Assembly: GCF_041415945.1 (NCBI RefSeq)
Contig: NZ_JBGCUS010000004.1
Span: 21,874-85,873 of the forward strand
Source of the DNA: Ancylobacter sp. IITR112
Lineage (GTDB): Bacteria; Pseudomonadota; Alphaproteobacteria; Rhizobiales; Xanthobacteraceae
Length of the DNA: 64,000 nt
Reading direction: 5' to 3'
Of this stretch, positions 1,131-44,393 are shown piece by piece. Below the pieces are notes generated by a model, which made no database searches, was not told where the DNA came from, and was given only the letters and a program-made list of their open reading frames with translations. The position numbers and the translations under genes are program-made. Within the stretch, counting starts at the first letter, position 1. The number at the start of each line of letters is the position of its first letter.

Positions 1131-1161
1131 TCGATCATCTCCTCTATAAAGAGCAATACGA

Positions 1162-1182
1162 CCGATAATGCAACATTATCGG
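1162..1182. promoter_or_regulatory. Perfect palindrome upstream of the DUF1403-ScpB operon
   Basis: Nine-base arms CCGATAATG and CATTATCGG flank a CAA centre, about 80 bases upstream of the DUF1403 start. A perfect palindrome in an otherwise AT-richer leader suggests an operator or a partition-type binding site for a protein encoded nearby. The ligand is unknown. Confidence 0.45.
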
Positions 1183-1264
1183 ATGTTCTTATTTGGCGAC
1201 AGGTGGTGCGGTTTCAATCGGAAAATATGGAATAAAGCGCACCGCTCGGTTATCCTTCCGGCCG

Positions 1265-2215
1265 ATGTCCGCGACCGATTCAACGTCCTTGCCCGCATAT
1301 GCGCCTCCGACCGTGCCGGGGTGGGCGATCCCGCGCGCGCCCGTGGAGGACCCGGTCGAGGCCGCCTACATGGCCGGCGCAGCATTGAATTCATTGGATA
1401 ATCTGGTCCGCGCCGATCCGCCCTGGGCGGGTGCCTGGCGCCAGCGCGTGGCCCTGAACGCGGCGGCGAGCGTCGCCCGCCTGCTCGGCCATCGCGAGGA
1501 CGCGGGGGCGCTGCGCGACGCCTGGCATCTGCGCCCGCCTGGCGCCGATCCTGGGCCCGCGGGCAACTTGCTGGCGGCGTGGCGACGGCTCGCCTCCCGC
1601 TCCCCGATGCTCGACGTGGACGGGCTGCGCTCGCTCGCCACTCTGCTCGGTCTGGCCTGGGCGCCGGCGCTTGAGGCCCTGCCGGAGGCGGTCGAGACGG
1701 CCGCCACCTCCAGTCGGCTGGCGCCGCTCGCCACCGCGTCGGCCGTCGGCACAGTCAGTGCGGCCGCACCCGGAACCGAAGCACTCGCCTGGTGGATTGC
1801 GGACCTGACGCTGGCGCGACGGATGCGCTGGCCGATCCCGGTGCCGGTGCTCGCCACCCAGATCCACGCGCGCGTGCTGCGATCCGCTCCGGGTGGTCGC
1901 CGCTATCGGCCGGGAGGGGAGGGGGGCGAGGCGGCGCTTTGTCTTGCCGCGGCCGCCGGCGCCGCGGAGGCCTGCCGGCTCGCCGGCGAGATCGCCCGCC
2001 GCGCCGAGCGGCTCGGGGCCGTGGCGCCAAAGCTGCGCGCCAAGGGGGCAGGGGAGGCGATCGCCTTGCTGCTGGACGATGACGCGGTGTCGGGCGCGCT
2101 GACGACGGCGGCGCTGTCGCGCTGGGCGTCGCGCCGACTGTTCGAGCGGCTCGCAGCGCTCGACGCCGTGCGCGAGCTCTCGGGCCGATCCACCTTCCGG
2201 CTCTACGGGCTCTAG
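1265..2215 (+). CDS. DUF1403 family protein
   Basis: A 316-residue, Ala/Arg/Leu-rich, mostly helical protein. The run around ADPPWAGAWRQRVALNAAA and the RPPGADPGPAGNLLAAWRRL segment are typical of DUF1403, a family of unknown function found mainly on rhizobial plasmids and commonly next to a ScpB-like gene, as here. An in-frame TTG lies at 1193, but ATG 1265 (MSATDSTSLPAYAPP) fits the usual family start better. It is followed after two bases by the scpB-like gene, so the two are co-transcribed. A role in plasmid maintenance is inferred from context only. Confidence 0.8.
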   Translation: MSATDSTSLPAYAPPTVPGWAIPRAPVEDPVEAAYMAGAALNSLDNLVRADPPWAGAWRQRVALNAAASVARLLGHREDAGALRDAWHLRPPGADPGPAGNLLAAWRRLASRSPMLDVDGLRSLATLLGLAWAPALEALPEAVETAATSSRLAPLATASAVGTVSAAAPGTEALAWWIADLTLARRMRWPIPVPVLATQIHARVLRSAPGGRRYRPGGEGGEAALCLAAAAGAAEACRLAGEIARRAERLGAVAPKLRAKGAGEAIALLLDDDAVSGALTTAALSRWASRRLFERLAALDAVRELSGRSTFRLYGL

Positions 2216-2217
2216 CC

Positions 2218-2901
2218 ATGGCCCGGCGGCGCCGCGCGGACGCAACCCTCGACACCGAGCTCGCCGAGCTGCCGCCGGAGCTGCGCTGGCGGGAATGGGT
2301 CGCGCGGGTCGAGGCGGTGATCTTCGCCGCGCCAGGTCCTGTCGATCGGGAGCTGCTCGGCCGCGTCGTCGGACGGGGCTGCAGCATCGAGCTTATCATC
2401 GAGGACATCCGGGACGCGTTGCGTGAGCGCCCCTACGAGCTGGTGCCGGTCGCCGGCGGCTGGCAGCTGCGCACCCGTGCGCGCCACGCCGAGGCGATCC
2501 ACGCGGCGTTCGGCTCGGCGCCAGCGCCGGTTCCGCTCTCCGAGGCCGGCATGCTCGTGCTCGCCTGCATCGCCTACCATCAGCCGGTGACCCGGGGCGC
2601 CCTGAGCGAGATGATCGGCAAGGCGGTCAGCCGCGACACCATCGCCGAGCTGCGTGCGCGCGACTTCATCGTTGCCGGGCCCAGGAGCCCGCAGGCGGGC
2701 GCGCCCTACACTTATGTGACCACCCGGGCATTCCTGGTGCACTTCGGCCTCGACACGCTGCGCGACCTGCCCGACGTCGAGGCGCTCGAGGACGCCGGGC
2801 TACTCGATGCCGCGCAGCTGCGCGCTGGCGGCTTTCCGTCGTCGGCGGCCGACGACGATGATCTCGGGCCCGAGGATGGGGAAGACGAGGAGGGGGATTG
2901 A
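2218..2901 (+). CDS. ScpB-like segregation and condensation protein (plasmid type)
   Basis: A 227-residue protein with the tandem winged-helix pattern of ScpB: LRWREWVARVEAVIFAAPGPVDRELLGRVVG near the N-terminus, then VPVAGGWQLRTRA, then the second winged helix LSEAGMLVLACIAYHQPVTRGALSEMIG at about residues 105-135. ScpB is the kleisin-associated subunit of the SMC complex in chromosome condensation; plasmid copies like this one lack a neighbouring scpA or smc and probably form a separate lineage tied to DUF1403. The C-terminus is a very acidic tail (DDDDLGPEDGEDEEGD). The start is two bases after the DUF1403 stop. Confidence 0.85.
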   Translation: MARRRRADATLDTELAELPPELRWREWVARVEAVIFAAPGPVDRELLGRVVGRGCSIELIIEDIRDALRERPYELVPVAGGWQLRTRARHAEAIHAAFGSAPAPVPLSEAGMLVLACIAYHQPVTRGALSEMIGKAVSRDTIAELRARDFIVAGPRSPQAGAPYTYVTTRAFLVHFGLDTLRDLPDVEALEDAGLLDAAQLRAGGFPSSAADDDDLGPEDGEDEEGD

Positions 2902-2908
2902 AGCCGGC

Positions 2909-3757
2909 ATGAGAGCCCAGCCGTTTACCCGGTCGACGATTGTCGCCGCCAATGAGCTTCTGGCCGAGGCCATCAGGTCGCACACTCAGATCAACAAGAT
3001 GGTGCTTCGCCTGGGCCTGGAAACGGAGGTCCCGGACGACACTTCGCTTGGCATCGAAAAGAAGTGCGATCGGCTTGGTCGAACCATCCTCGACCGCGCC
3101 TTGGTGCCGGTGGAAACCCTCGATGGGAGATTTTCGCTGGCCGAAGCCTTTGTCCGCGAGGCGGTGAGCCTCGCCGAGCAATCATCGTCGAGCATCCGCC
3201 AGAGGGATCTGCTCCGGGGCCTGGCACGCGACGGGTATGTCGTGGTCTGGGGCGAATGGCGCGAGCCGCCCAGGCTGCGGGCCGCCTTGCCCGAGGAAGT
3301 TGACCTGCCGGCGGCCGACGACGAGGTCCGGGAATTGCTGAAGCGGTTCGGGTTCACGGTGCCGCTGCGACACCTGGATCAGGCGATCGAGGCGCACACG
3401 CGGGGCGATTGGGAGGCGGCGAACGCGCAACTCCGAACCTTCCTCGAAGGGCTGTTCAACGACATCGCCCGCTCTATCGACCCGTCGAGAGCGGCCCGGC
3501 TGCAGGAGGGCATCAACATGCGGCAGATGCTGGCGGACAACTCCATCGAGTTCCTGGCGATCGACCGGAAGGAATGGACCGCCGATGGCAGGAGCTATAT
3601 CGAAGGCCTCTTCAAGATGCTCCACACCGATGGATCGCACCCCGGCCTGTCCGACGAGGATCACTGCACGTTCCGGCTCCACGTCGTGCTGGTGACCGCG
3701 CGGACCTTCCTTCGACGCCGACAGCAGGGGCGGCTGTCCTCGCTCCCGCCTGGCTAA
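2909..3757 (+). CDS. Conserved hypothetical protein, possible abortive-infection C-terminal fold
   Basis: 282 residues, chosen start ATG 2909 just after AGGAGGGGG, only seven bases beyond the scpB-like stop, so it is probably in the same transcript. I do not recognise a named family with certainty. The C-terminal half (AIEAHTRGDWEAANAQLRTFLEGLFNDI followed by a helical segment and LHTDGSHPGLSDEDHCTFRLHVVLVTARTFLRR) resembles helical abortive-infection C-terminal (HEPN-like) modules that end defence proteins. No catalytic motif can be assigned confidently. It converges on the DUF2971 gene with a two-base gap. Confidence 0.65.
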   Translation: MRAQPFTRSTIVAANELLAEAIRSHTQINKMVLRLGLETEVPDDTSLGIEKKCDRLGRTILDRALVPVETLDGRFSLAEAFVREAVSLAEQSSSSIRQRDLLRGLARDGYVVVWGEWREPPRLRAALPEEVDLPAADDEVRELLKRFGFTVPLRHLDQAIEAHTRGDWEAANAQLRTFLEGLFNDIARSIDPSRAARLQEGINMRQMLADNSIEFLAIDRKEWTADGRSYIEGLFKMLHTDGSHPGLSDEDHCTFRLHVVLVTARTFLRRRQQGRLSSLPPG

Positions 3758-3759
3758 GC

Positions 3760-4653
3760 TTACGGCTGAGGCGCGCAGGTGACCGGCACGGTCGTCTCAA
3801 ACGGCGTGCCCGCAATGGCGGACAGCACGTCTCTCCTCTGTGCAGCGGGACCGCACTGGATCTCGAGAAGCCGGATGCCGCAGAAATCGTTGTGTTGGCC
3901 AATCGGCAGCGGCCAGTATCGATTCTGGCCGTCAAATTCGGTCTCGTCTCGGCCTCCCGGGTATCGCTTTATGAGTAGCCGGACCTCATCTTCCCGATGA
4001 AGCGTCGACGGCAGATAGAAGGCGCCGATCTTCGACACCGTCCACGGTACAAAGGGTGGCTCACCCTCGGCTGCAAGCGTGCTGTTCAGTTCCATCAGAA
4101 GCGTGCCCGCGGGTGGTTCATACTGAATCTTCCGCAGTTCGGCGCGCGAGGGGTTCACCAAGAGCCTCAACCGCACTCCGGTGCCGCCCAGCGCAAAGGC
4201 GCGCCATAGTTCGAATTCGTCACCGCCACCCGGACATGTCAGCGAAATGTAGAAGAGGTCCTTGGACAAGGTCTTGAAATAGGGCTCACTCTCCGATGAA
4301 TCGAGGTAACCTTTCAGCCGATGCTTGATGGCGAAGGGTTCGAGCTCACCCTGATCAATGCGCTTGTGGACCCAATGGAGGCGCAGGAGCCCGGTTTTTG
4401 CAATACCCTTCAGTGAATCGATGCTGGTGTAGTGAAAAAGTTCCGCTGGCTTTGGTGCGTGCGGAAACATGTGGTTGAGGATCGCGTCAGAAAGCACCTT
4501 GCTATGCGTAGGCTCTACGATAACTTCCGGTCGGAGGGTGAATTCGACGTCTTTGACCTGATCCCAAACACCGCAGGGCTCCAATACGGATTGGAAGATC
4601 CGCCGGACCTTAGCTTGTCGCTCTATCTCAAGGAAGATGGGTGGTTGGTTCAT
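3760..4653 (-). CDS. DUF2971 family protein
   Basis: 297 residues. The N-terminal part has ELFHYTSIDSLKGIAKTGLLRL, the middle has DLFYISLTCPGGGDEFELWRAFALGGTGVRLRL, and the C-terminus has YLPSTLHREDEVRLLIKRY. This is the layout of DUF2971, a family with an ADP-ribosyltransferase-like look (H-Y-T at the start, late E) often found in defence islands. It lies 18 bases downstream of the GIY-YIG gene on the same strand, making it the last gene of the abiEi-abiEii-GIY-YIG run. Catalytic activity is inferred from family architecture only. Confidence 0.65.
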   Translation of the reverse strand: MNQPPIFLEIERQAKVRRIFQSVLEPCGVWDQVKDVEFTLRPEVIVEPTHSKVLSDAILNHMFPHAPKPAELFHYTSIDSLKGIAKTGLLRLHWVHKRIDQGELEPFAIKHRLKGYLDSSESEPYFKTLSKDLFYISLTCPGGGDEFELWRAFALGGTGVRLRLLVNPSRAELRKIQYEPPAGTLLMELNSTLAAEGEPPFVPWTVSKIGAFYLPSTLHREDEVRLLIKRYPGGRDETEFDGQNRYWPLPIGQHNDFCGIRLLEIQCGPAAQRRDVLSAIAGTPFETTVPVTCAPQP

Positions 4654-4671
4654 TGCGAGGGGAATCTCGTC

Positions 4672-5514
4672 TCAAGGGAGAAGGCTGGCCGCCCATGCGG
4701 ATTGCAATTCGGCTTCCGAGCACTGCAGGCGTTCGAAGCCGGTCCGGCTCGGTTCCATGCGGGTCAAGACGCGCTGCTCCATCTCGTAGGCCTCGATGGA
4801 GGTCTTCCAGGGTTGGGTCAGGAAAATCGCCCATTGCTCGTTGAGCACCTCGACGGGGATGTGCTGGTTCACGGCGGCGAGACGTACCTTCACATCCTCG
4901 GCGTGGCCGATCTTGAAGATGTTCCTCTTGCCGAACCGCAAAGCGTAGGTCGCGGCGGCGTTCTGAGCGGAGCGTTGCACGCCGTACGTTGTGTCGTGGG
5001 GTCTCGGGCCGGTGGTCGGCCGAAGAAGCTCGTTCAGTTGTCGCATCCGCTGGAGCGAGGCAAGCTCGGGCAGCACGAGCGGCTCGGCAGCGAGGGCCAG
5101 GACGCGCCTTACATCATCCTCCTCAAGCTCCTCCACGCCCGGCGTCGCGAGCATGGTCAGCTGGGCGGACAGCGTGTCCGTCACCACCGGCTGCGGCACA
5201 AAGCGCCATGCCCGGGTCAGTGCGACCGCATGAGGAAATTTGTAGTTGCCGCGCTCGTCGAAGTCGCGGGGATCGAGGTCGGCGTGGGTGGCGATCTCGA
5301 GCGTGCGCAGCGGCTCGAAACCAATCTCCGCCATTCCCAGCAATCGCCCTTGGAGGGACTCCGGCGTGCGCTCCGTCTTCGTGCCCACGAACAGCAGGCG
5401 GTCCCCGCGTTCGGCAAGCCTGAGGAGACGGTTGAGGTGGCCCGCCGATCCGAAGGTCGCGATCGGCAGACGTTCAAATCCCAGGCCCCAGACGCGGGTT
5501 GCGAACATCCTCAT
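4672..5514 (-). CDS. PUA/EVE-like plus GIY-YIG nuclease-type protein
   Basis: 280 residues in two parts. Residues about 35-110 (GDRLLFVGTKTERTPESLQGRLLGMAEIG and the following NYKFPHAVALTRAWRF) look like an EVE/PUA-type modified-base binding domain. Residues about 190-260 (ATYALRFGKRNIFKIGHAEDVKVRLAAVN and EAYEMEQRVL) match the GIY-YIG/T5orf172 nuclease pattern, with the KIG-x-x-x-D-x-x-x-R core. The pairing suggests recognition and cutting of modified DNA, which is inference. Its ATG overlaps the stop of abiEii in an ATGA, so translation is coupled to the toxin gene; DUF2971 follows 18 bases later. Confidence 0.65.
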   Translation of the reverse strand: MRMFATRVWGLGFERLPIATFGSAGHLNRLLRLAERGDRLLFVGTKTERTPESLQGRLLGMAEIGFEPLRTLEIATHADLDPRDFDERGNYKFPHAVALTRAWRFVPQPVVTDTLSAQLTMLATPGVEELEEDDVRRVLALAAEPLVLPELASLQRMRQLNELLRPTTGPRPHDTTYGVQRSAQNAAATYALRFGKRNIFKIGHAEDVKVRLAAVNQHIPVEVLNEQWAIFLTQPWKTSIEAYEMEQRVLTRMEPSRTGFERLQCSEAELQSAWAASLLP

Positions 5515-6641
5515 GGCGCTGTCGAGCCCAGCTGATCGGGATGCGACACCGAGGGCGAGTTGAGGTGTCGTTCGAGCGCTTCGATGCTCGCCATCACCTC
5601 CTCGAAGGCGGGCGGTGTCCCGAAGATCATCGCCGACATGCGCCCATAATCGGCCGCCAGCTTGGCACGCATCTCCGAGGTGGGGACAAGACGGTAGGTC
5701 CCCGGCACGGCCCGGTCGTATCGATGATCCGGCGCGCGAAACATCAGCATCTTGTGTTGGCGGGAGGCTTCGGCGAGGTCGAGCGTCGAGGCGGTCGCGA
5801 CGCCATAGTCCGGATGGGTCCAGATCTGATGGACGTCGTAATAGTGGCGCGAGTAGCGATCGAGATTGGGTTCCGGGCGGTCGGGCCTGGCGTCAAGACG
5901 GCGCTTCTCGGTCATCTCGGTCATGGCGTGCAGGATCAGCACCTTTTCCCAAAAGGTCCGCTCGGGTTTGACCGTCATGACGCTTCCGACGGTGAGATCG
6001 AGGTCCTCGGGCATTTCCGAGGCGACATAGGGAACGATCGTTCGAGGCTCCGCGGGCACGGGATCGGGCCGCGCGCCGCCCTCGATGCGGACCGCCGCCT
6101 GGACGTAGTCGTCGCCGGCGTCGAAGGCGCTCCTGTAGCCGACCACCAGGATGTCGAGGGCCTCCCTGTTCCGGTAGGGATCGAAGCCGAAGCTGAGGGA
6201 AAAATGTCCCTTCTGCCCGGCCTCCCTTTCGACGACGGTGATCTCCTCGCTCAGCAGGGTTCTGAGCGGGCCGGAAATATACTGCCGCGCCGCTTCGTCG
6301 ACCCGGTCGGTCAGTGCCTTCTGCTGCTGGGTCGGCGAGGGCAGGGCAGCGATGTCGGCTTCCAGCGGCACCTTCAGGTCGGCCTTGTAGATGCCGATGT
6401 CGATGTCTTCGGAGAAGCGGCGGATCAGTCCATAGGCCTTGCTGAGGCTGGTGCCACCCTTGAAATAGAGTCCGATGGGATCGTGTGGCCGGCGGTTGAA
6501 CAGGAAGTCGAGCACCCAGCAGACATAGAGGTCCTTCTCGACGTTCTCCGCGCGGGTCTCGAGCCCGGCGGCGACGGTCGAAAAGAGGGCGCGGCGATCG
6601 TCGACGCTCGCGCGGAGGATTTCAATGAACGTCTCTTGCAT
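5511..6641 (-). CDS. AbiEii-type nucleotidyltransferase toxin (copy 1)
   Basis: 376 residues from ATG 6641 (MQETFIEILRASVDDRR). The nucleotidyltransferase signature KGGTSLSK is at residues 61-68, followed by FSEDIDI at 76-82 with the metal-binding acidic pair. A conserved VKPERTFWEKVLILHAM lies in the second half. AbiEii proteins are the toxin of type IV AbiE systems; related enzymes add nucleotides to tRNA or other targets. It overlaps the upstream antitoxin by 20 bases and the downstream GIY-YIG gene by ATGA. A close paralogue is at 39592-40713. Confidence 0.85.
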   Translation of the reverse strand: MQETFIEILRASVDDRRALFSTVAAGLETRAENVEKDLYVCWVLDFLFNRRPHDPIGLYFKGGTSLSKAYGLIRRFSEDIDIGIYKADLKVPLEADIAALPSPTQQQKALTDRVDEAARQYISGPLRTLLSEEITVVEREAGQKGHFSLSFGFDPYRNREALDILVVGYRSAFDAGDDYVQAAVRIEGGARPDPVPAEPRTIVPYVASEMPEDLDLTVGSVMTVKPERTFWEKVLILHAMTEMTEKRRLDARPDRPEPNLDRYSRHYYDVHQIWTHPDYGVATASTLDLAEASRQHKMLMFRAPDHRYDRAVPGTYRLVPTSEMRAKLAADYGRMSAMIFGTPPAFEEVMASIEALERHLNSPSVSHPDQLGSTAP

Positions 6642-7365
6642 GCTCCCCCTTCGGCCGCTCGGGATCGGGTTCATCAGCCCCGCCTTCCTGGCCAAGTAGC
6701 TTGCGCGCGATCGTCTCCGCCAGGGGGTACATCCATGCTGGCACCGCCTGGATGTTGTCGCGCAGGTCCTGCGCGACCTGCCCTCGGTTGGGGGCCTGCG
6801 ACAGATGCCGCACGATGCCGTTGACGGCCGCATCGAGGCTCGATTTTTCGTCCCGATACCACGTCAGGGCCTGGACCACGCGCATGGCCGGCCGGCCGGC
6901 CCAGAATGCGGTCTTGGCCGAAATGCGCTTGAAGTCCAGCCTGTAAATGACCGGCTGCGCGGCCTTGGGATCGCCGGCGTTGGCCTCGATCTCGATCGTC
7001 CGCGGATAGGTGTCCGCATGGATCGTCGACCGGGCCGGAACGGCGGTGGTCAGGCCGAGATCGTTCGCCGCCGTCATGCCGTCGACCAGCACACGCAGCT
7101 TGTCGCGCCGGGCGATGGCGTCGATGAACGCGGCGCGCGGCGGAAACACCATCTTGCCGGTCAGCTTGCTGGTTGTGGGCTTGTCGTAGAGGCCACGGTG
7201 AGGGCGGCGGATGTCGCCCCGCCGGGTCAGCCTCTGCAGCGCTTTCTCCACGGCATTGGGCGTCCCGATATCGAGGAAGTCGGCGCGGGACCACACCCCG
7301 GCCGGTGCCGCCTTGGCGATCCGGTCATGGATGCGGTCGAGGGTATCGGACGTAGGATCCGGCAT
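6622..7365 (-). CDS. AbiEi-type antitoxin, DUF6088-like (copy 1)
   Basis: 247 residues. An N-terminal winged helix (GVWSRADFLDIGTPNAVEKALQRLTRRGDIRRPHRGLYDKP) is followed by the AbiEi C-terminal domain (RLDFKRISAKTAFWAGRPAMRVVQALTWYRDE). Such antitoxins repress their own operon through the winged helix and counteract the toxin without a stable complex. It is the first gene of the operon, directly downstream of a sigma-70-like promoter overlapped by two direct repeats, and overlaps the toxin gene by 20 bases. The matching second copy at 40694-41068 has lost its N-terminal half. Confidence 0.85.
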   Translation of the reverse strand: MPDPTSDTLDRIHDRIAKAAPAGVWSRADFLDIGTPNAVEKALQRLTRRGDIRRPHRGLYDKPTTSKLTGKMVFPPRAAFIDAIARRDKLRVLVDGMTAANDLGLTTAVPARSTIHADTYPRTIEIEANAGDPKAAQPVIYRLDFKRISAKTAFWAGRPAMRVVQALTWYRDEKSSLDAAVNGIVRHLSQAPNRGQVAQDLRDNIQAVPAWMYPLAETIARKLLGQEGGADEPDPERPKGEHARDVH

Positions 7366-7385
7366 CAGGCATCCGTTTGTGTCCG

Positions 7386-7457
7386 AAAATTATATCCAGA
7401 AATTGGTCAGTGGCAATGACGGCGCGACCAAAAATTATATCCAAAAATTGGTCACTG
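7386..7457 (-). promoter_or_regulatory. Promoter and tandem operator repeats of abiE copy 1
   Basis: On the minus strand TTGCCA (7416-7411) and TATAAT (7394-7389) are separated by 16 bases, 24 bases upstream of the antitoxin ATG. Two 27-base direct repeats with two mismatches, 7386-7412 and 7431-7457, share a 45-base period. The proximal one covers the spacer and the -10 box. This is what an autorepressor site would look like; binding by the AbiEi winged helix is inferred. Confidence 0.7.
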
Positions 7458-7755
7458 CAGCGAAGAAGGGCGGGGTGCGACCTGGGCTCCGCCACCTGCT
7501 GCTGGCTGGCGCCTGGAGCGATTGGCCGATGCGCATGTGGAAGGCGAGCGGGAGCACCTCGGTATTGCCGAGACCGCAAGCCGAGCGGAGCTGGTCAGGC
7601 GGTTGGTGCAGGGGTTCGGCATCTCGCTCATGGCATGGCGCAGAGTCCGAAGCCATCGACCGTGACCCATGGACGTCACCGACGAAAGGATGCGCCGCGA
7701 GAGCGCTATCCCGCGCCGCTGCGACGATTCAAGTCCTTGGCCGGAGACAACTCCA
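7458..7755. other. No gene recognised between abiE copy 1 and the DUF1801 gene
   Basis: Short frames here have no domain and no ribosome binding site. One plus-strand stretch near 7520-7660 (reads about LADAHVEGEREHLGIAE) looks protein-like but is interrupted and unrecognised; it may be a remnant. Confidence 0.4.
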
Positions 7756-8184
7756 TCAGGGACGCCGTCGATGATAGGTAAGCGCCATGGCGAGGCAGAT
7801 CGCAAGCGGCTCGGCCGGCAGCGGAACGGATGGATCGAGCAGGATCGTGCGGTTTCCCTGATAGGAGAGCGTCTGCGCGAAATGTGCGCGGAACGTCTCC
7901 ACCAGTGTCGTGCGGCAGTTGAACAGCACCGCACCCGTGCCTTGCGGCGATTTCGGCCGGCCGAGCCGGATCGTGCTGCCGCTGCCCGTCGCCAAGGTAA
8001 GGTAGGCGGGCTCACCCCATTTCAACGTCTCGGTTAAAGGGCCGACGCCGGACGTTCCCGCGGCCGTCGCGAAAATCAGAGCCCGCACCTCCAGGAGCCT
8101 CAGGCGGACCCGCTCGGGGAATGCGGCGAACGCCGCCGCGACCTCGGCGGGGATCTCCGGCGGTTCCGGTTCGCGGCGCATCAT
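7756..8184 (-). CDS. DUF1801 domain protein
   Basis: 142 residues. FPERVRLRLLEVRALIFATAA followed by LTETLKWGEPAYLTLATGSGSTIRLG and YQGNRTILLDPSVPLP match the DUF1801 (YdhG/frataxin-like) pattern, in which a helix ending in a kWgePay turn leads into a small beta sheet. Function of the family is unknown. The gene stands alone, between the AbiE operon and the MucR regulator, on the minus strand. Confidence 0.75.
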   Translation of the reverse strand: MMRREPEPPEIPAEVAAAFAAFPERVRLRLLEVRALIFATAAGTSGVGPLTETLKWGEPAYLTLATGSGSTIRLGRPKSPQGTGAVLFNCRTTLVETFRAHFAQTLSYQGNRTILLDPSVPLPAEPLAICLAMALTYHRRRP

Positions 8185-8487
8185 GGAGCCCTCAGCGGCA
8201 CATCGATGTCAACGACAAGTCGGGACAGGACCACGTGTTATCGAGCGAAGCTTCAGATGGTCCTGGTATTCATTTCCCCGGCAGGGATCGAACGAAGTCG
8301 AGAGCGGCATCGATCAGCTTTCGCCGCAGTTCGTCGTCACCATATGCCGATGGCCCGGCTCGAACCCAGCCTTGCATCCGCCGGCCGCGGGAGATCATCG
8401 GGACAACATCCGCCATGGCCAGCGCCAACCTTGCCGGCTCGCAGGAAATGCGCTTGAAACGAAGCTGTTACTTTAGCGAGGTGCACC
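8185..8487. other. Intergenic, divergent promoters
   Basis: This 303-base stretch separates the divergent DUF1801 and MucR genes and presumably carries their promoters. No convincing gene, operator palindrome or RNA was seen. Confidence 0.4.
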
Positions 8488-8964
8488 GTGACCGAACCGT
8501 CCGTCGAGCGGAAAAACGACACTAATCTTGAACTCGCCACAGATATCGTGGCGGCCTTCGTCAGTAACAACAGCGTGCCTGCGGCTGATCTACCTGTCCT
8601 CATTCAGAGTGTGTATGCTGCCCTCGCGAAGTTAGGGGCTCCCGAACCCGTCATCGTGGAGAAATTGAACCCCGCCGTCCCAGTCAAACGCTCGGTGACC
8701 GACGACTTCATCATCTGTCTCGAGGATGGCAAGAAGTTCAAATCGCTGAAGCGCCATCTGCGCACGGTCTACGACCTCAAGCCGGAGGCCTATCGCGAGA
8801 AATGGGGCCTCCCGCACGACTATCCCATGGTGGCGCCCGCCTACGCGGCGGCACGCTCAGAGCTCGCGAGGAACATGGGCCTGGGTCAGGCGCGCAAAAA
8901 GGCCGTTGAGCCTCCTGCGCCAACCAAGAAAGCGCCTTCACGCCGTAAGGCTACGGCCACCTGA
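8488..8964 (+). CDS. Ros/MucR family transcriptional regulator
   Basis: 158 residues from GTG 8488, preceded by GAGG. The N-terminal oligomerisation region (LELATDIVAAFVSNNSVPAADLPVLIQSVYAALAKLG) and the DNA-binding part (FIICLEDGKKFKSLKRHLRTVYDLKPEAYREKWGLP) are typical. Compared with Ros, the second Cys of the zinc finger is Asp and the last His is Tyr (RHLRTVYDL), so only one Cys and one His of the classical ligand set remain; zinc-independent Ros homologues are known in Mesorhizobium. MucR proteins act as H-NS-like silencers of AT-rich and horizontally acquired genes. The C-terminus is Lys/Arg-rich. Confidence 0.85.
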   Translation: MTEPSVERKNDTNLELATDIVAAFVSNNSVPAADLPVLIQSVYAALAKLGAPEPVIVEKLNPAVPVKRSVTDDFIICLEDGKKFKSLKRHLRTVYDLKPEAYREKWGLPHDYPMVAPAYAAARSELARNMGLGQARKKAVEPPAPTKKAPSRRKATAT

Positions 8965-9169
8965 AACCCAGTCACCTTTTTTTTCGTCCCGCTTCGTGGC
9001 GTGAGGGATCTCTCTCAACGCTGGACTGAAGTTCGCCTCCTTCGGCGGATGACGCCTTTGGCTTCCTAGTGAACGACAGCAGGTCCATTCGTCCGCGTCC
9101 GACCCCGACTTCGCCGTTCACGGCGGCTTGCGTAGGGCCCGAAAAGCAATCGTTGTGAGGGAGCCTCCT

Positions 9170-9448
9170 GTGAAGAGAGCCTTGGTCTTGTTGGGTGCTG
9201 GTGCTGCAATCGACTTCGGCGCTCCTTCGACGATGAAGCTGACCGACATCATCGAGAAGGCGGTCATTGAGGATCGGGTCATGCAGATGACCGGCGGTGA
9301 CGGAGCCTTCCAGACGATTAGGGCTGGTCTGGCGGGCTACCTGCACAAGCCCGGCATTGTGCATTTTGAGCAGATCTATCACTGCGCGCACGAGCTCCTG
9401 TTCACGACACTGTGGGCTTCAAGCCCACAAGGTCGTGAAATAGATTGA
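9170..9448 (+). pseudogene. SIR2-like defence protein, N-terminal fragment
   Basis: From GTG 9170 after GGGAGCCTCCT the product begins KRALVLLGAGAAIDFGAPSTMKLTD, the NAD-binding GAGA/G-x-GAPS start of SIR2-like proteins found in many defence systems. Only about 80 residues of homologous sequence remain (up to HFEQIYHCAHELLFTT) before the frame runs into a long hairpin and stops. A full SIR2 domain needs about 250 residues, so this is a broken gene. Confidence 0.65.
9401..9439. repeat. Long hairpin at the SIR2 truncation point
   Basis: TTCACGAC pairs with GTCGTGAA, and inside it TGTGGGCT pairs with AGCCCACA around a three-base loop, with one two-base internal bulge. It sits exactly where the SIR2 homology ends, so it may be the end of a lost element or a terminator; no T-run follows. 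Confidence 0.6.
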
Positions 9449-9741
9449 GACGCCTTGCCTTCCTGACCCCATCATGCGGCGACCCTGCGTCGACCGCGAA
9501 GAGAAGCGAGTGACCCACGGGGCGACGCGATCCAAGACCAATGAAGGCAGAGAGCAGGAGCAGCTTGACTTCAACGACCCCAATCAGAGAGGGCTCTCAG
9601 AGACTTTTCGTCGGGAAAAGCAAAAAATCACAGCGCGCCGAAAGCGCCAATCACGCTCTCAATTTAGAGCGTTGAACAGCCCTGGTTGAAAGGATGTTGG
9701 GCCCGCCCGCAGAATCACGGGCGGATAATACAAGGATATCT

Positions 9742-10464
9742 TTATTTCGACGCGTCGTCGATCGCCTTTCGAATCGAGCGATAGGTCTCGTAAAAAAGCG
9801 TCCTGGCATCCGTGTAGCTCTTCTGCACGGCCTTCCAGGCTGTACTTGAACCTTCTTCGAGCCGTGCGAGCCTCGCCTGAGCATCATCGACCTGCGCTTT
9901 CAGCGCGGCGATGCGCGCTTCAATGGCCACGCGCTGGTCGGCCCCGACCTTTTCCGCCCGCGCCCGCAGGTCCTCGACGGATTGCAGCCAAGCCGTGCGC
10001 CGGGCATCCAATTCCGCCTGGAGCACGGCCCGGCGCGTCGCGAGGTCTGCTTTGGCGGAATCCAGGTAGGAATCGCGCGCGGATTGGAATGCCGTCCAGT
10101 TCGCATCGAGCCGTTCTTGAGCCGCGCTGACCTGCGCATCGGTCCAGGATTTCGCGTTGGCGATCGACGTGTCGGCCTGCGCTCGATAAGCGTCGCGTTG
10201 CTCGCGCAGCGTCTTGATCGCGGCATCCGCCTTGGCGCGCGCCTCGCCCGTAAGCGCTGCGGCGTTGCGCTCCAGCGCGGCGATGGTCGCATCGGCCTCC
10301 GCCAGACGATCCTGGGTCCATTGGATGGCCTGGCGGGCCGCCGAAGTCTTATCGACGTCCTGCGTCGGCGGCGCGGCGCCCTCGGCGAGGGCATGCGGCG
10401 CGGCGAACGCGAGAGCGGGAACCAGGAACGCAATCCCGGCGATGGTGGCGCGCATGTTCTTCAT
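9742..10464 (-). CDS. Exported coiled-coil protein, unknown function
   Basis: 240 residues from ATG 10464 (MKNMRATIAGIAFLVPALAFAAPHALA), a clear signal peptide. The mature part is almost entirely charged heptad-like helix (AALERNAAALTGEARAKADAAIKTLREQ and similar repeats) rich in Ala, Arg, Asp and Gln, so a periplasmic coiled coil is likely. The C-terminus (STAWKAVQKSYTDARTLFYETYRSIRKAI) resembles the C-terminus of the upstream gene product, so the two are distant paralogues. They are 52 bases apart on the same strand. An imperfect GC hairpin at 9702-9723 follows the stop. Confidence 0.7.
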   Translation of the reverse strand: MKNMRATIAGIAFLVPALAFAAPHALAEGAAPPTQDVDKTSAARQAIQWTQDRLAEADATIAALERNAAALTGEARAKADAAIKTLREQRDAYRAQADTSIANAKSWTDAQVSAAQERLDANWTAFQSARDSYLDSAKADLATRRAVLQAELDARRTAWLQSVEDLRARAEKVGADQRVAIEARIAALKAQVDDAQARLARLEEGSSTAWKAVQKSYTDARTLFYETYRSIRKAIDDASK

Positions 10465-10516
10465 TGTGATCTCCGCAGCAGGAAGAAGGGGTCGGAAAGC
10501 CCGGACGTCACGTGCT

Positions 10517-11125
10517 TCAGAGCAACTTGGCGAACGCGCCCTTGATTTTGTCGATGGTACGGTTGTGGACGGCCTTCGCCTCCGCAAGGCCGCTCTTCAC
10601 AGCCTCCCAAGACGTATCTCCCGCGTCCTTGACCTCGCCGATCCTGGCCTGGAACCTCTCGGCCTCCTCGGACAGACGATTGATGGCCGCGTCCAGCTCC
10701 CCGCGCGCGGTGTCCACCGTCTCGGCGGCCTGATCGCGCAGCCTCTTCAGGGAATTGTCCCAAGCCTGGCGCTGCGCTTCGACACGCGCCGCCACGATGC
10801 CACGCGCCGTCTCCGCCTGGCCGGCGAGCGCCCCGAGGAGGGACTGGAAGGCTGTCTCGACCTCGACCCATTGGGCGTCGAAGGCGTCCTGGAGATCTTC
10901 CGCAGTGCGATCGAGAGCCTTCGCCTCGGCGCGGAGTTCATCGTAGGACTGCTGCAGGCTGGCGCGGGACGCCTCAAGACGGGCCACCGCGGCATCGGCT
11001 TCCGCCCGGACACTACCGCTCAGATCCTTGGACCTCTTCTCCACCTCGGAGATGAGCGCGTCCAGCTCATCAAGCCGCTGCTTCGCCCATACGATGGTTT
11101 CGTGGGGGTATGATTTTTCACTCAT
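10517..11125 (-). CDS. Cytoplasmic coiled-coil (phasin-like) protein, unknown function
   Basis: 202 residues without a signal peptide, almost wholly helical (AKQRLDELDALISEVEKRSKDLSGSVRAEADAAVARLEASRASLQQSYDELRAEAKALD). The pattern of amphipathic helices is phasin- or apolipoprotein-like, but no family is certain. The end SWEAVKSGLAEAKAVHNRTIDKIKGAF is similar to that of the exported neighbour 52 bases downstream, suggesting duplication followed by addition of a signal peptide. The 90-base AT-rich gap upstream (11126-11215) presumably holds its promoter. Confidence 0.65.
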   Translation of the reverse strand: MSEKSYPHETIVWAKQRLDELDALISEVEKRSKDLSGSVRAEADAAVARLEASRASLQQSYDELRAEAKALDRTAEDLQDAFDAQWVEVETAFQSLLGALAGQAETARGIVAARVEAQRQAWDNSLKRLRDQAAETVDTARGELDAAINRLSEEAERFQARIGEVKDAGDTSWEAVKSGLAEAKAVHNRTIDKIKGAFAKLL

Positions 11126-11215
11126 CTGGCATCCCTTCTCGCTATAGAAATGGAACCACTTACTTATTTAACATATGAACATATTTCTGCATCATCATTA
11201 TTGATCTACATTAAA

Positions 11216-11890
11216 TCATGCGAGAAAATTGCTTCGACACAGATCGCGGACCATGACCTCGAACTGGGCAACATGCCCGCCCTGAAAATCATCCCCGTCG
11301 ATGCTGCGCAGCACGATGCCGCGCAGAAACCTGAAGCTCATGATGACGGTCATGATCGCGCTGACGCGCAGACGGATGATCTCGTCCTCCGCCTTCGAGG
11401 CGGACATGTCGCGCGCCGCCAGAGCGAGCCGGTTTACCAACGGCTTGATGGCTTCCGTGTGGATGAGCTCGAATGCCTCATCCTTGTCGTACGCGCAACG
11501 AGCGAAGAACGACGTCCAAGAATGTGGCTCCGCGTCCTCCAGGACGATGTGCAGCAGATGGATGAGCGCGCCTTCAAAACGGCGCCTCGGGTCGGCCTCC
11601 GCGCCCCCGTCCAACAGGGCGCCGATTTCCTCGAAGCGGCCCCGTGCATAGTCGGCGATCATCTGCGCCGCAGCGAGATAAAGCTCCTTCTTCCCTCCGA
11701 AATGGTAGGGAATAGCCGACAGGTTCGCATTCGCGGCCTTGGCCAGGACGCGCGTGCTCGCCGCCTCATATCCGACCGAGCCAATGACCTCGATCGTCGC
11801 CTCCAGGAGGTGCTCGCGTGTCTTGGCGCTGCGGGCGTCGTGCCCGCTCGGTGCTTTCGGTTTCGATGCCATTGCAATTTCCTCGTTCAA
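11216..11890 (-). CDS. TetR/AcrR family repressor, CecR-like
   Basis: 224 residues. The N-terminal helix-turn-helix (KTREHLLEATIEVIGSVGYEAASTRVLAKAANANLSAIPYHFGGKKELYLAA, about residues 22-75) is classical TetR, with the YHFGGK recognition-helix end. The C-terminal domain (RRFEGALIHLLHIVLEDAEPHSWTSFFAR) matches the CecR/YbiH C-terminal type. It is divergent from the RND efflux operon, with an 18-base perfect palindrome between them, so it is probably the local efflux repressor. Start at 11890 or at MASKPKAPS (11872). Confidence 0.85.
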   Translation of the reverse strand: MNEEIAMASKPKAPSGHDARSAKTREHLLEATIEVIGSVGYEAASTRVLAKAANANLSAIPYHFGGKKELYLAAAQMIADYARGRFEEIGALLDGGAEADPRRRFEGALIHLLHIVLEDAEPHSWTSFFARCAYDKDEAFELIHTEAIKPLVNRLALAARDMSASKAEDEIIRLRVSAIMTVIMSFRFLRGIVLRSIDGDDFQGGHVAQFEVMVRDLCRSNFLA

Positions 11891-11895
11891 TAGTT

Positions 11896-11913
11896 AGTTC
11901 ATTCGAATGAACT
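11896..11913. promoter_or_regulatory. Operator palindrome between TetR and the RND operon
   Basis: AGTTCATTC is followed directly by its reverse complement GAATGAACT, a perfect 18-base palindrome starting six bases from the repressor start codon and about 80 bases before the adaptor gene. Position and symmetry fit a TetR-family operator that would control both directions. Confidence 0.7.
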
Positions 11914-11992
11914 TATCAAGCGGGAAGCTGCGCTCGATCGTCGCCGGCCGACCCGGATCGAAAACCCGAATGTGACTCCAAAGGAAATCGTC

Positions 11993-13073
11993 ATGCGTGA
12001 CACGGCCGCCAGGCCTCATGCCGCCTGCCTTGCGGCGCTGCTCCTGATCTTCCCGCCTGTCGCCGCCTGGGCGGCACCTGCCGCCGAACCATCCGCGGGC
12101 CTTGCCACCGTGACGGTCGTGGAAAGGGAGGTTCCCGTGACTTACAGCGTGCCCGGATCGGTGGTCTCCGATGGGCGCATCGACGTGTCGTCGCGGGTTG
12201 TCAGCTTCATCCAACAGCTCGACGTGCGCGAGGGGCAGACGGTGTCGCGTGGCGACCTCCTCGTGCGCATCGATCCTTCCGACATCCACGAAGCGATCCG
12301 GCAGGCGGAGGCCAGCGTGCGAGCCAGCCGCGAGGACCTCGACGACGCCAAGGCGGATGTCGAGAAATATTCCAAGCTCGCCGTCACGGGCGCCATCGCC
12401 GCCGAAACCTTGCGCAAGGCGAAGGTACGCGTGGATGTTGCCCAAGCACTCCTCGACAAGGCGCAGGCCGCTCTCGCCGCCGCCAATGCCCAGAAGGGCT
12501 ACGCCACCATCACCAGCCCGGTAGACGGCGTGGTGGTCTCCGTCGCGCGCCGCACCGGCGAGATGGCCACCGCCGGCACCCCCCCTGCTAACGGTGGAAT
12601 CCCGCGAGGTCCTCCTGTTCAAAACGTTCGTCGCCGAAAGCAGGCTCACGCAGATCGATCCGAAAGCAGAGGTCAAAGTGCGGATCGACACGTTGAAGGA
12701 CAAGGTATTTCCGGGACGCGTGCGTGGCATCGTGCCGTCCGGAGACGACATCACGCGGCGCTACGAGATCAACATCATCCTGCCGTCCGATCCGGCGCTG
12801 GTACCGGGCATGTTCGGGCGCGCGGACTTCAGCCTTGGCAGCCGCAAGACACTGCTCGTGCCGCGCGCCGCCATCGTGCATCGCGGTGGGCTCGACGGAG
12901 TGTTCGTGCTCGACGGCCACTCGGCTCGTTTCCGCTGGCTGCGCACCGGCAAGGACATCGGCGATGCCGTGGAAGTCAACGCCGGGCTCACCGCCGGCGA
13001 GGCCATCCTCATCGGGCCCACCGACGCGCTGCGCGACGGCGCGATCGTCAACCTGATCGGAGGGGCGAAATGA
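11993..13073 (+). pseudogene. RND efflux membrane fusion (adaptor) protein, frameshifted in a C7 run
   Basis: Start ATG 11993 follows AAGGAA and gives a signal peptide (CLAALLLIFPPVAAWAAPA). Residues to about 197 are a normal adaptor: the lipoyl/hairpin segment (SRVVSFIQQLDVREGQTVSRGDLLVRIDPSD, long coiled coil, ATITSPVDGVVVSVARRTGEMATAGTP). At the seven C's 12579-12585 the frame shifts; removing one C restores LLTVESREVLLFKTFVAESRLTQIDPKAEVKV to the stop at 13073, giving a 359-residue protein of ordinary length. The remaining beta-barrel and membrane-proximal parts are intact. It overlaps the pump gene by ATGA. The cause may be a sequencing error, a real mutation or phase variation. Confidence 0.8.
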
Positions 13074-39221: not shown

Positions 39222-39595
39222 TGAGCCAGCAGCGCTGGATTGTCGCTGACCCGGATGACCCGCTGCGCGTCGCCGGAAAGTTGTATGTCGCCGCCGCGAT
39301 AGTTACTGATTATCCGCGGCTTGACGTCCGTTCCGGTGAAGTCGGGCGCGGTGTCCATATGCGAGCAGAAGCAGATAACCGGCACTGGCTTTTCGACATT
39401 GGAAGGAATGGTCGCATAGACGTAGCCATGCTCATCCAGATGCGCGTCGGTGAGGCCGACCGCCAGCAATTCCTCGACCAGCAGGCGGCCCAGGTTCTTC
39501 TGCTTTTCGGTGGAGGGCTGTGTCGATGACTCCGGGTCCGATTGCGTGTCGAGGACAACGTAACGAAGAAAACGATTGGTCACAGTATCGATCAT
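39222..39595 (-). pseudogene. Peptidase T-like (M20) protein, N-terminal fragment
   Basis: From ATG 39595: MIDTVTNRFLRYVVLDTQSDPESSTQPSTEKQKNLGRLLVEELLAVGLTDAHLDEHGYVYATIPSNVEKPVPVICFCSHMDTAPDFTGTDVKPRIISNYRGGDIQL. This is the start of peptidase T, with the first metal-binding motif SHMDTAPDF. The rest (about 280 residues, including the catalytic Glu and other metal ligands) is lost to the IS5-type insertion. The ATG overlaps the abiEii stop in ATGA, so it was co-translated with the toxin. Confidence 0.85.
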
Positions 39596-40713
39596 GAAGC
39601 AGGTCCAATTACCGCTGAGTCTGGAGCAGAGTTGAGATATTGTTCGAGCGCCTCGATACTCGTCATCACGTCGTCGAAGGTAGGCGGTTCACCGAAGATC
39701 ATGGCTGACATACGATCGTAGTCCGCGGCCAGTTTCTTACGCATGGCCTCAGTCGGTACGAGTCGATAGTTGCCTGGAACGGCGCGATCATACCGATGGT
39801 CCGGCGCACGAAACATCAGCTCCTTGTGCCGACGGCTGGCTTCGGCGAGATCCCGCATGTTTGCGGTCGCTACCCCATAGTCAGGATGGGTCCATATCTG
39901 GTGGACGTCATAGTAGTGGCGTGAGTACCGATTGAGATCGGGTGCCTTCCGCTCCGGGTTTGCCTCGAGAGTTCGCTTCTCGGTCGTCTCTGTCATCGCA
40001 TGGAGGATGAGGACCTTTTCCCAAAAGGTCCGTTCCGGCTTGACGGTTGTGACGCCGCGAACCGTGAGATCGAGTCCCGGTCTCATTTCCGATGCGATGT
40101 AAGGCACGATCTCCCGAGGCTCGGCCGGGATGGGATCGGGGCGGGCGCCGCCTTCGATACGCACCGCTGCCTCGATATAGCCGCCGCTGGTATCAAACAC
40201 GCTCTTGTAGCCGATGACCAGAATGTCGAGCGCTTCCCTTCTTCGGTAGGCGTCGTAGCCGAAGCCGAGAGAGAAATGGCATGTTTGGTCGGCTTCTTCT
40301 TCGACGGCGGTGATTTCCTTGGCCAGCAGTTCCTTGAGTGGGCCGGAAATATATCGGCCTGCGGCCTCGTCGACCTGCTCGGCCAAGGTCTTCTGTTGCT
40401 GCGTCACGGAGGGGAGGGCGGCTATGTCCGCCTCGAGCGGCACCTTCAAGTCGGCTTTGTAGATGCCGATGTCGATATCTTCGGAAAAGCGCCGGATCAG
40501 ACCATATGCCTTACTGAGGCTGGTGCCGCCCTTGAAGTAGAGACCGATGGGGTCGGCGGGTCGCCTGTTGAACAGGAAGTCGAGCACCCAGCAGACATAG
40601 AGGTCCTTCTCGATATTCTCGGCTCGCGTTTCCAGTTCGGCCGCGACGGTTGAAAACAGCGCCCGGCGCTCATCGACGGTGGAGCGAAGGATTTCAATGA
40701 ACGTCTGATGCAT
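39592..40713 (-). CDS. AbiEii-type nucleotidyltransferase toxin (copy 2)
   Basis: 373 residues from ATG 40713 (MHQTFIEILRSTVDERRALFSTVAAELETRAENIEKDLYVCWVLDFLFNRRPADPIGLYFKGGTSLSK). It closely matches copy 1 throughout, with KGGTSLSK and FSEDIDI intact. Start and stop are complete, so the toxin could be made. Its antitoxin partner upstream has lost its N-terminal half and promoter to an IS3 element; expression may now depend on the IS. It overlaps that antitoxin fragment by 20 bases, as in copy 1, and the peptidase T remnant by ATGA. Confidence 0.85.
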   Translation of the reverse strand: MHQTFIEILRSTVDERRALFSTVAAELETRAENIEKDLYVCWVLDFLFNRRPADPIGLYFKGGTSLSKAYGLIRRFSEDIDIGIYKADLKVPLEADIAALPSVTQQQKTLAEQVDEAAGRYISGPLKELLAKEITAVEEEADQTCHFSLGFGYDAYRRREALDILVIGYKSVFDTSGGYIEAAVRIEGGARPDPIPAEPREIVPYIASEMRPGLDLTVRGVTTVKPERTFWEKVLILHAMTETTEKRTLEANPERKAPDLNRYSRHYYDVHQIWTHPDYGVATANMRDLAEASRRHKELMFRAPDHRYDRAVPGNYRLVPTEAMRKKLAADYDRMSAMIFGEPPTFDDVMTSIEALEQYLNSAPDSAVIGPAS

Positions 40714-41068: not shown

Positions 41069-41094
41069 TGACGTTGCCCCCTGAATGCCCTCGT

Positions 41095-41916: not shown

Positions 41917-41939
41917 GACCTTCCTCCGGGAACTGGGCG

Positions 41940-42206: not shown

Positions 42207-42267
42207 CGTCCGTCTCCTCTCGACGGATCCTAGCTTCTGAGCGGGGTCATTTCAGGGGGCAACGTCA

Positions 42268-43667: not shown

Positions 43668-43782
43668 CCGCCCGGACGGAGAGGCGGCCGCCAAGGAGGG
43701 GTCATGAAGGGCTGAAGAGAAGATGGTGATCCCCGCGAAGGGGAGCTGCGCTCCGGCCCGACGAGGCTGAAAGGAGCCCGCC

Positions 43783-44385: not shown

Positions 44386-44393
44386 GTGCTGCC

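Follow-up and report, generated by a model that had tools for sequence, protein, structure and literature searches.

AbiE has been described as a bicistronic type IV toxin-antitoxin system with a polymerase-beta-type nucleotidyltransferase toxin and promoter repeats (Dy et al. 2014, PMC3985639); the same paper defines the AbiEii toxin by the motif hG[G/S]x15DhD, a motif III lysine, and a motif IV of the form +DxxD. EVE domains occur in defence contexts, toxin-antitoxin modules included, and their numerous fusions with GIY-YIG nucleases are predicted to be type IV (modification-dependent) restriction enzymes (Bell et al. 2020, PMC7641849). Methylation dependence has been shown for the wH-GIY-YIG 6mA-dependent nucleases (PMC11037411), and SNIPE (DUF4041 + GIY-YIG) is a phage-defence nuclease with an essential active-site glutamate, E414 (PMC13190303).

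We analysed a 64,000-nt stretch of Ancylobacter sp. IITR112 DNA (the window), in which four minus-strand genes encode a DUF6088 antitoxin, an AbiEii toxin, a GIY-YIG protein, and an ADP-ribosyltransferase-like protein. The locus shares with the published AbiE an antitoxin, a nucleotidyltransferase toxin with x15-spaced motifs I and II, and promoter repeats; however, it has four genes rather than two. The third gene product has the two-domain architecture of the EVE-GIY-YIG fusions in PMC7641849. Like the wH-GIY-YIG enzymes of PMC11037411, it joins a (here predicted) modified-base reader to GIY-YIG, although the reader is EVE/YTH-like rather than a winged helix. SNIPE, as described in PMC13190303, likewise uses a GIY-YIG nuclease as a phage-defence protein, but it is membrane-anchored and carries a DUF4041 targeting domain instead of an EVE/YTH-like one. 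The main text of PMC7641849 contains no words beginning with "Abi" or "Zorya," and we found in it neither the last-gene position (behind Zorya I, AbiE, Mrr, or C5-methylase/Vsr genes) nor the domain-boundary change reported below. Among the matches listed in our literature search, which covered few subscription papers and no bioRxiv preprints, none, going by its title and opening abstract lines, describes an operon of AbiE, EVE-GIY-YIG, and ADP-ribosyltransferase-like genes. We consider the locus to be a mobile, mosaic defence operon, in which AbiE would provide control and maintenance and the nuclease would work largely alone (probability roughly 0.6).

Operon layout and the AbiE pair

The antitoxin gene (window positions 6622..7365, minus strand, 247 aa) and the toxin gene (5511..6641, minus strand, 376 aa) overlap by 20 nt, the toxin stop codon overlaps the start of the GIY-YIG gene (4672..5514, minus strand, 280 aa) in an ATGA, and an 18-nt gap separates this gene from the fourth (3760..4653, minus strand, 297 aa). 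These coordinates agree with the gene order, overlaps, and gap given in the first-pass annotation. Its AbiE labels also hold: Pfam matched DUF6088 (E 4.6e-21) and AbiEii (E 1.3e-33), and PADLOC matched AbiEi (2.4e-88) and AbiEii (1.8e-91). An AbiEi-type antitoxin gene thus lies upstream of, and overlaps, an AbiEii nucleotidyltransferase gene, as in type IV AbiE, and the 20-nt overlap was also present in all eight sampled plasmid AbiE loci.

The toxin carries motif I (G62-G63), the x15 spacing, motif II (D79-I-D81), and the motif II arginine (R75), and at least 16 of the 17 toxins in the alignment share each of these residues; K233, conserved to the same extent, is a candidate for the motif III lysine, which in AbiEii has a hydrophobic setting. 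Motif IV reads R265-H-Y-Y-D269, in which the basic residue and last D are kept and the first D is absent. Together with the DUF6088 antitoxin, this partial departure from the published motif distinguishes the pair from the AbiE of PMC3985639. Compared with K. hirudinis, dN/dS was 0.12 for the antitoxin, 0.13 for the toxin, and 0.23 for the nuclease; judged from these sequence comparisons, all three genes are under purifying selection.

Upstream of the antitoxin gene, a promoter/operator-like region (7386..7453, minus strand) contains two copies of a 23-nt element, distal (7453-7431) and proximal (7408-7386), each with a TATAAT inside. A -35-like TTGCCA starts at 7416, and the -10 TATAAT ends at 7389. 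Between positions 2500 and 8200, this was the only sigma-70-like site (11/12 matches; 0.5 sites expected). The proximal copy outscored all 200 composition shuffles in 14/14 AbiE loci, and the distal copy did so in 12/14. By analogy with AbiE biochemistry, in which the antitoxin represses its own operon and neutralises the toxin without touching it, the DUF6088 antitoxin would repress this promoter, so that the DUF6088-AbiEii pair would supply both a self-repressed promoter and addiction. Because the genes overlap and no second promoter-like site was found, all four probably share a single transcript, and the nuclease and ADP-ribosyltransferase-like genes would then be expressed from the AbiE promoter. 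The operon is a toxin-antitoxin pair that has acquired two further genes, one for a predicted nuclease whose second domain resembles known modified-base readers and one for an ADP-ribosylating-enzyme look-alike.

The predicted nuclease and the fourth protein

In the predicted structure, the nuclease consists of an N-terminal EVE/YTH/ASCH PUA-like reader-type domain (residues 1-145; 5080..5514, minus strand), a linker (residues 146-184; 4963..5079, minus strand) with pLDDT under 50 at residues 167-180, and a C-terminal GIY-YIG domain of T5orf172/MUG113 type (residues 185-280; 4675..4962, minus strand). Assignment of the N-terminal domain follows from the predicted fold, as Pfam EVE matched none of 30 family members. 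For the C-terminal domain, the window protein by itself did not reach the Pfam threshold (T5orf172, E 0.01); among its relatives at E≤1, T5orf172 matched 26/30 (best 3.1e-5), MUG113 matched 20/30 (best 2.9e-7), and the GIY-YIG model itself matched 2/30. Residues Y190, K201, G203, R211, and E246 are invariant in 30/30 members, and we take Y190, R211, and E246 to be the Tyr, Arg, and Glu of GIY-YIG. Foldseek matched this domain weakly to Slx1 (E 0.15); the VIA fold rows re-examine Foldseek's own matches and are not an independent search. Of the labels proposed from sequence, PUA/EVE is supported by the predicted structure and GIY-YIG by the relatives' profile matches. Neither PADLOC nor NCBIfam assigned a family to the nuclease, and sequence comparison of the nuclease, fourth protein, and toxin with solved structures gave no useful match. 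We infer that the nuclease may cut DNA bearing a modified base, in a type IV-like restriction carried out largely on its own.

The first-pass annotation assigned the fourth protein to DUF2971, a label that failed at the Pfam level: the window protein had no Pfam match at E≤1, and DUF2971 matched 0/26 members of its alignment. The accompanying suggestion of an ADP-ribosyltransferase-like protein is moderately supported by the predicted fold; Tox-ART-HYD1 weakly matched 11/26 alignment members (best 9.1e-4). The invariant H74, T76, E221, E223, and R225 would be compatible with NAD+-dependent transfer. PADLOC assigned no family to the gene. The closest known enzymes with an ADP-ribosyltransferase fold are DarT and Tpt1, from which the protein differs in that it had no sequence match among PDB chains and no macrodomain gene was present among the scanned neighbours. 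During infection, the protein may modify nucleic acid or protein.

The closest folds include YTH m6A-RNA readers for the nuclease N-terminal domain and the tRNA phosphotransferase Tpt1 for the fourth protein, and both would suit an RNA-directed operon, in which modified RNA would be bound by the EVE/YTH-like domain, and the GIY-YIG domain would either cleave RNA or, alongside AbiEii and the fourth protein, act on tRNA. However, the GIY-YIG defence enzymes described in PMC13190303 and PMC11037411 cut DNA, and the Zorya, Mrr, and C5-methylase/Vsr partners of the nuclease family are DNA-directed by annotation; we regard an RNA target as very improbable.

Linkage of the nuclease with AbiE

All four genes occur together on two plasmids, and three of the four occur in K. 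hirudinis, so the gene order does recur. Linkage of the GIY-YIG gene to AbiE is rare: among the matches listed, the gene is known at 2/174 plasmid AbiEii places. This figure combines AbiEii matches at E 1e-40, for which 60 of 168 records were listed, with nuclease matches at E 1e-5 in 6 records, and leaves out a Rhizobium etli fragment of residues 1-63 and partial Limimaricola and Caulobacter matches. Across 397 genomes of the order, with the best 6 candidates scored per genome, it is known at 1/9 AbiEii places.

These counts bear on the proposal in the first-pass annotation of a single compound system, in which phage DNA would be sensed by the EVE-GIY-YIG protein and the cell stopped by AbiEii together with the fourth protein. 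Four overlapping or abutting genes behind one promoter-like site, their joint occurrence on two plasmids, and the purifying selection seen against K. hirudinis speak for such a system, but the linkage is rare, another nuclease gene takes the fourth place in K. hirudinis, and the family lies mostly behind non-AbiE genes: among 20 full-length nuclease loci in genome contigs, 15 have another upstream partner (5 of these without a family), and no partner was recognised at a further 4. Given how seldom the genes are linked, a fixed, dedicated four-gene AbiE system is not supported, and we judge the compound reading quite unlikely. In the mosaic operon that we favour, AbiE would not be an effector triggered by the nuclease.

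The slot after the toxin is occupied by unrelated genes (the GIY-YIG gene, a 362-363-aa gene, an NTP-transferase gene, a 267-aa gene, or a decayed pepT), and the gene after GIY-YIG either is the ADP-ribosyltransferase-like one or encodes a DpnII/MboI-type nuclease. An exchangeable third-gene slot, as first proposed, is therefore loosely supported; the second AbiE copy cited for it is weak evidence. That copy (39226-41100) exists and is coupled to pepT, but it is a decayed fragment rather than an intact system: antitoxin residues 1-122 have no match, with an IS3-type element in their place, and the pepT-like ORF has 236 aa, whereas full-length pepT has about 400 aa. In an identical copy on contig 3, this ORF runs into a transposase ORF.

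The variable slot would also suit a chance neighbourhood, with the third and fourth genes riding behind the AbiE promoter on a mobile element and functionally unconnected. Consistent with this, for 6/8 sampled AbiE plasmids no co-directional third gene is listed within 100 nt, and the block is mobile (see below). Against it, the nuclease and ADP-ribosyltransferase-like genes recur together without AbiE on two S. meliloti plasmids, AbiE recurs with the ADP-ribosyltransferase-like gene on S. meliloti pSymA, and the nuclease sits close to lineage-stable partners, as described in the next section; chance therefore seems unlikely. AbiEi_3 and AbiEii were confirmed at S. meliloti locus L067.

Nuclease relatives in other operons and mosaicism

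PADLOC and Pfam were run on representative loci, and the remaining loci were assigned to representatives by tblastn. One of the 20 nuclease loci lies behind AbiE, 3 behind an Mrr-type gene (one with an intervening DUF4238 gene), 4 behind a C5-methylase/SNF2/Vsr island, 3 behind Zorya I genes, and 5 behind a 157-174-aa gene without a family (four being near-copies); L034-L036, L038, and L039 were omitted from this count because the match was partial. Because its relatives close several antiviral operons that are unrelated to one another, the nuclease looks like a portable add-on and not part of one fixed machine. The gap to the upstream partner was -17 to +10 nt in 21 loci, and at the divergent locus L082 (genome G298) a 282-aa gene without a family overlaps the nuclease gene by 4 nt.

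Partner labels on the nuclease tree required 7 changes (minimum 6; shuffled mean 16.9; 0/200 shuffles as low), and the association is lineage-stable. The tree contained 25 hand-chosen rows, with L083 on a very long branch; it omitted near-copies (L018, L019, L059, L077), frame-disturbed L060, viral L054 and L055, truncated or partial L013, L014, L034-L036, L038, L039, and L064, and divergent L010 and L043-L047. The family has probably been appended several times to unrelated defence operons at their 3' ends, with the partner then kept, and the AbiE coupling would be one recent case. Around the orphan nuclease genes at L076 and L077, which are 75% identical, no AbiE remnants were found. Phage records held no relatives at E 1e-5; three IMG/VR contigs did, one (L053) with a methylase/Vsr island and two (L054, L055) that resemble phage on visual inspection and show no defence partner.

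Zor genes precede nuclease relatives in L029, L030, L032, and L081. Zorya type I consists of ZorA-ZorB-ZorC-ZorD; the window's own genome has no ZorC match at E≤1e-15. ZorC matched in 23/397 genomes, and the nuclease was linked in one (G481), which rejects it as a general Zorya feature; in G298, the ZorC match and the nuclease are on different contigs (best 6 candidates per genome scored). A bolder proposal, which we hold to be unlikely, is that the protein is a plug-in nuclease recruited as the last gene of Zorya I, Mrr-type, C5-methylase/SNF2/Vsr, DUF3644, and AbiE operons, with nuclease halves that can be swapped behind the linker, and that here its expression would be gated by the toxin-antitoxin pair, so that infection would derepress it jointly with the toxin and the ADP-ribosyltransferase-like protein. 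If the family is portable, the way in which defence systems acquire parts could be tested directly, by setting the same kind of module from Zorya, Mrr, methylase, and AbiE operons side by side; the locus also cautions that genes' other neighbours should be counted before one compact operon is called a new compound machine.

The locus lies in a 6.4-kb block (1142..7540) with 98.6% identity to a conjugative plasmid of Xanthobacter dioxanivorans; positions 1155-7540 share 98.7% with a conjugative plasmid of Ancylobacter polymorphus. Near position 5000, at about residue 171, nucleotide identity to K. hirudinis drops from 89-100% to 73-86%, and homology ends at the end of the GIY-YIG gene. The nuclease half and the following gene thus seem to have been swapped together as one unit, with the junction in the linker between reader and nuclease, and the two loci form a natural pair differing at that point. 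The fourth gene and a convergent gene (2909..3757, plus strand, about 282 aa, without an assigned family) match a locus in genome G389 at 68% DNA identity. There, a 77%-identical relative of the convergent gene is likewise convergent with the fourth gene's relative and lies beside Hachiman genes.

Operon layout and control region

The four genes lie on the minus strand of an 86-kb contig, in an assembly of 11 contigs. The antitoxin (7365-6622) matches Pfam DUF6088 and PADLOC AbiEi, and the toxin (6641-5511) matches Pfam and PADLOC AbiEii; they are followed by the nuclease gene (5514-4672), whose product joins a reader half with an EVE/YTH-like fold to a GIY-YIG nuclease half, and by a fourth, ADP-ribosyltransferase-like gene (4653-3760). 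The coordinates and junctions in the first-pass annotation are exact: a 20-nt antitoxin/toxin overlap, an ATGA overlap between the toxin and nuclease genes, and an 18-nt gap before the fourth gene. The toxin has intact motifs I and II, including the arginine of motif II and the x15 spacing typical of AbiE; K233 is a candidate for the motif III lysine, and in motif IV the first aspartate is not conserved.

A single promoter-like site occurs within positions 2500-8200, directly upstream of the antitoxin gene, and its -10 hexamer falls within a 23-nt element. We sought the window's version of this element 5' of 14 AbiE antitoxin genes (one each from the window, Kaistia hirudinis, and a plasmid whose copy is identical to the window's; another from elsewhere in this genome; two from other genomes; and eight from plasmids) and compared scores with the maximum of 200 composition shuffles. 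A proximal element exceeded this maximum in all 14 loci and a distal element in 12, mostly 45-52 nt further upstream (34 nt in one locus). Passages of Dy et al. (PMC3985639) describe Streptococcus AbiEi binding two inverted repeats in its own promoter; on this basis, we can fairly infer that all four genes would be under one antitoxin-type control.

The first-pass annotation proposed a compound sensor-effector system, in which the nuclease senses and AbiEii acts; we consider this unlikely. In the mechanism that we favor, the genes would share a transcript controlled by the DUF6088 protein, the reader domain would bind modified bases and steer cutting, the fourth protein would ADP-ribosylate, and AbiE would chiefly control and stabilize the block. 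The putative role of the nuclease is the best founded of these steps, since passages of one paper predict EVE-GIY-YIG fusions to be modification-dependent nucleases (PMC7641849) and passages of another demonstrate methylation dependence for a winged-helix-GIY-YIG fusion (PMC11037411).

Recurrence of the four genes

The operon consists of known parts whose association is rare for AbiE. The proposed recurrence held in that Xanthobacter dioxanivorans and Ancylobacter polymorphus each have a conjugative plasmid carrying all four genes, in a 6.4-kb block 98.6-98.7% identical to window positions ~1142-7540, and K. hirudinis has the antitoxin, toxin, and nuclease genes, with the fourth replaced by a gene for a nuclease of the DpnII/MboI type (PF18742, E 3.7e-33); however, such cases are rare among AbiEii places. 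Across 168 plasmid records there are 174 AbiEii places, and the nuclease is known at only 2 of them (the two plasmids just named); among 397 genomes of the order, it is known at one of nine AbiEii places (E 1e-60 or better, six genomes), the window's own. Six plasmid records carry the nuclease overall, one of them a short fragment. Among the best six candidates per genome, the nuclease profile matched in 8 of the 397 genomes at E 1e-10 (four full-length); the fourth-gene profile matched in four at E 1e-5. The 20-nt overlap is kept in all eight AbiE plasmid loci examined (out of 60 listed), and the PLSDB gene table, which is incomplete, gives a co-directional gene ≤100 nt after the toxin in two and none in six.

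Between the window and K. hirudinis, dS is 0.17 for the antitoxin, 0.12 for the toxin, and 0.08 for the reader half; it is 0.45 for the linker and 0.91 for the nuclease half, and the sequence after the nuclease gene is unrelated. Over the reader half, 90-nt windows show 89-100% identity, which drops to 73-86% from approximately position 5000 (residue ~171, within the disordered linker). The simplest account of this alignment would be one recombination that swapped the nuclease half together with the following gene. Values of dN/dS (antitoxin 0.12, toxin 0.13, nuclease 0.23; reader half 0.19, nuclease half 0.15) indicate purifying selection on the antitoxin, the toxin, and both halves of the nuclease.

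Two S. meliloti plasmids carry a set of methyltransferase, ADP-ribosyltransferase-like, Mrr-type, and nuclease genes, with no AbiE in the stretch shown. On pSymA of S. meliloti ABS7 and FSM-MA, a fourth-gene relative, broken by frame changes in both copies, accompanies a different AbiE subfamily (by annotation in ABS7; AbiEi_3 E 5.6e-35 and AbiEii E 5e-43 in FSM-MA), with no nuclease in the stretch. Genome G389 carries a fourth-gene relative beside Hachiman genes, convergent with a relative of the window's plus-strand gene at 2909-3757; the start of this fourth-gene relative resembles P0124, a protein named Rhizobium. Other copies lie beside TcmP and Hachiman genes (locus L062), an SRAP gene (L063), and a weakly HEPN/RES-like gene (L066). 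There is therefore more than one pairing among the nuclease, the ADP-ribosyltransferase-like gene, and AbiE. The protein of window 2909-3757, with no family assigned, is widespread (at least 744 relatives at E≤1e-3 among candidates scored); in the window, too, its gene runs convergently to the fourth gene.

Partners of the nuclease family

An apparently portable EVE-GIY nuclease closing several defence operons is the broader pattern, and more interesting than the operon itself; we found no description of it in the passages of published work consulted. A contig scan yielded 25 nuclease loci, 20 of them full-length. Among these 20, the immediate partner is AbiE in one, a 157-174-aa gene with no family assigned in five (L016, L017-L019, L021), C5-methylase, SNF2 helicase, and Vsr in four, Zorya type I in three, and an Mrr-type nuclease in three (a DUF4238 gene intervenes in one); a recognized partner is absent at four (L026, L031, L033, L037). 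L017-L019 and L021 are near-copies across four genera (Sandaracinobacter, a Qipengyuania MAG, Roseomonas mucosa, Aurantimonas); their near-identical segment, which holds the nuclease gene, a 174-aa gene, and large ORFs judged polymerase-like by eye, is probably a recently spread mobile element.

Outside the contig scan, the nuclease accompanies Zorya I in genome G481 (ZorA 5.9e-187, ZorB 6e-73, ZorC 2.7e-122, ZorD 4.8e-298), a methylase/Vsr island in L053, from an IMG/VR contig, Mrr in the two S. meliloti plasmids (L060 and L061; Mrr_cat E 9.9e-7), DUF3644 in G177 (E 2.9e-41), and a 282-aa gene with no family assigned in G298. No adjoining partner was seen at L076, L077, L054, or L055, and in Xanthobacter autotrophicus a plasmid-borne, truncated copy (L064) is preceded by unrelated genes. 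In L060, positions 8923-12401, which directly adjoin the set of methyltransferase, ADP-ribosyltransferase-like, Mrr-type, and nuclease genes, hold a gene for a prokaryotic Argonaute of 517 aa (PADLOC 3.1e-219) and one annotated as TIR, and the nuclease gene (8001-8858; strain M162) has its middle (residues ~107-172) partly in other frames, unlike its close relative L061.

In 21 measured loci with a partner, a gap of -17 to +10 nt separates the nuclease from the gene before it; the gap is -4 nt in a 22nd (G298). On a 25-row nuclease tree, partner labels take seven changes (minimum 6; shuffled mean 16.9; 0/200 as low), so partners switch rarely and then persist. AbiE rows form one clade (100/96), as do Zorya rows (95/96); Mrr rows need two. 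ZorC occurs in 23 of the 397 genomes and the nuclease is linked in one; the nuclease is therefore optional for Zorya.

Other AbiE copies of the genome

Positions 39226-42271 (3,046 bp) are repeated on another contig (L079) at 99.97% identity and contain an IS3-type element, AbiEi without residues 1-122, AbiEii free of stops across 363 matched residues, and a truncated pepT-like ORF. This AbiE remnant might still function, because the AbiEi C-domain alone suffices for neutralization according to passages of Dy et al. (PMC3985639). Positions 42488-49963 match a stretch adjoining the contig-2 AbiE copy (L080 10525-18001) at 97.8% identity over 7.5 kb; thus, the two AbiE copies occupy comparable places beside one backbone. 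A 362-363-aa gene with no family assigned follows AbiEii in this genome (L080 7329-8420) and on Afipia carboxidovorans pHCG3 (L089 4197-5285), the two copies being 71% identical, with gaps of 114 and 83 nt; it is a second recurrent third gene behind AbiEii.
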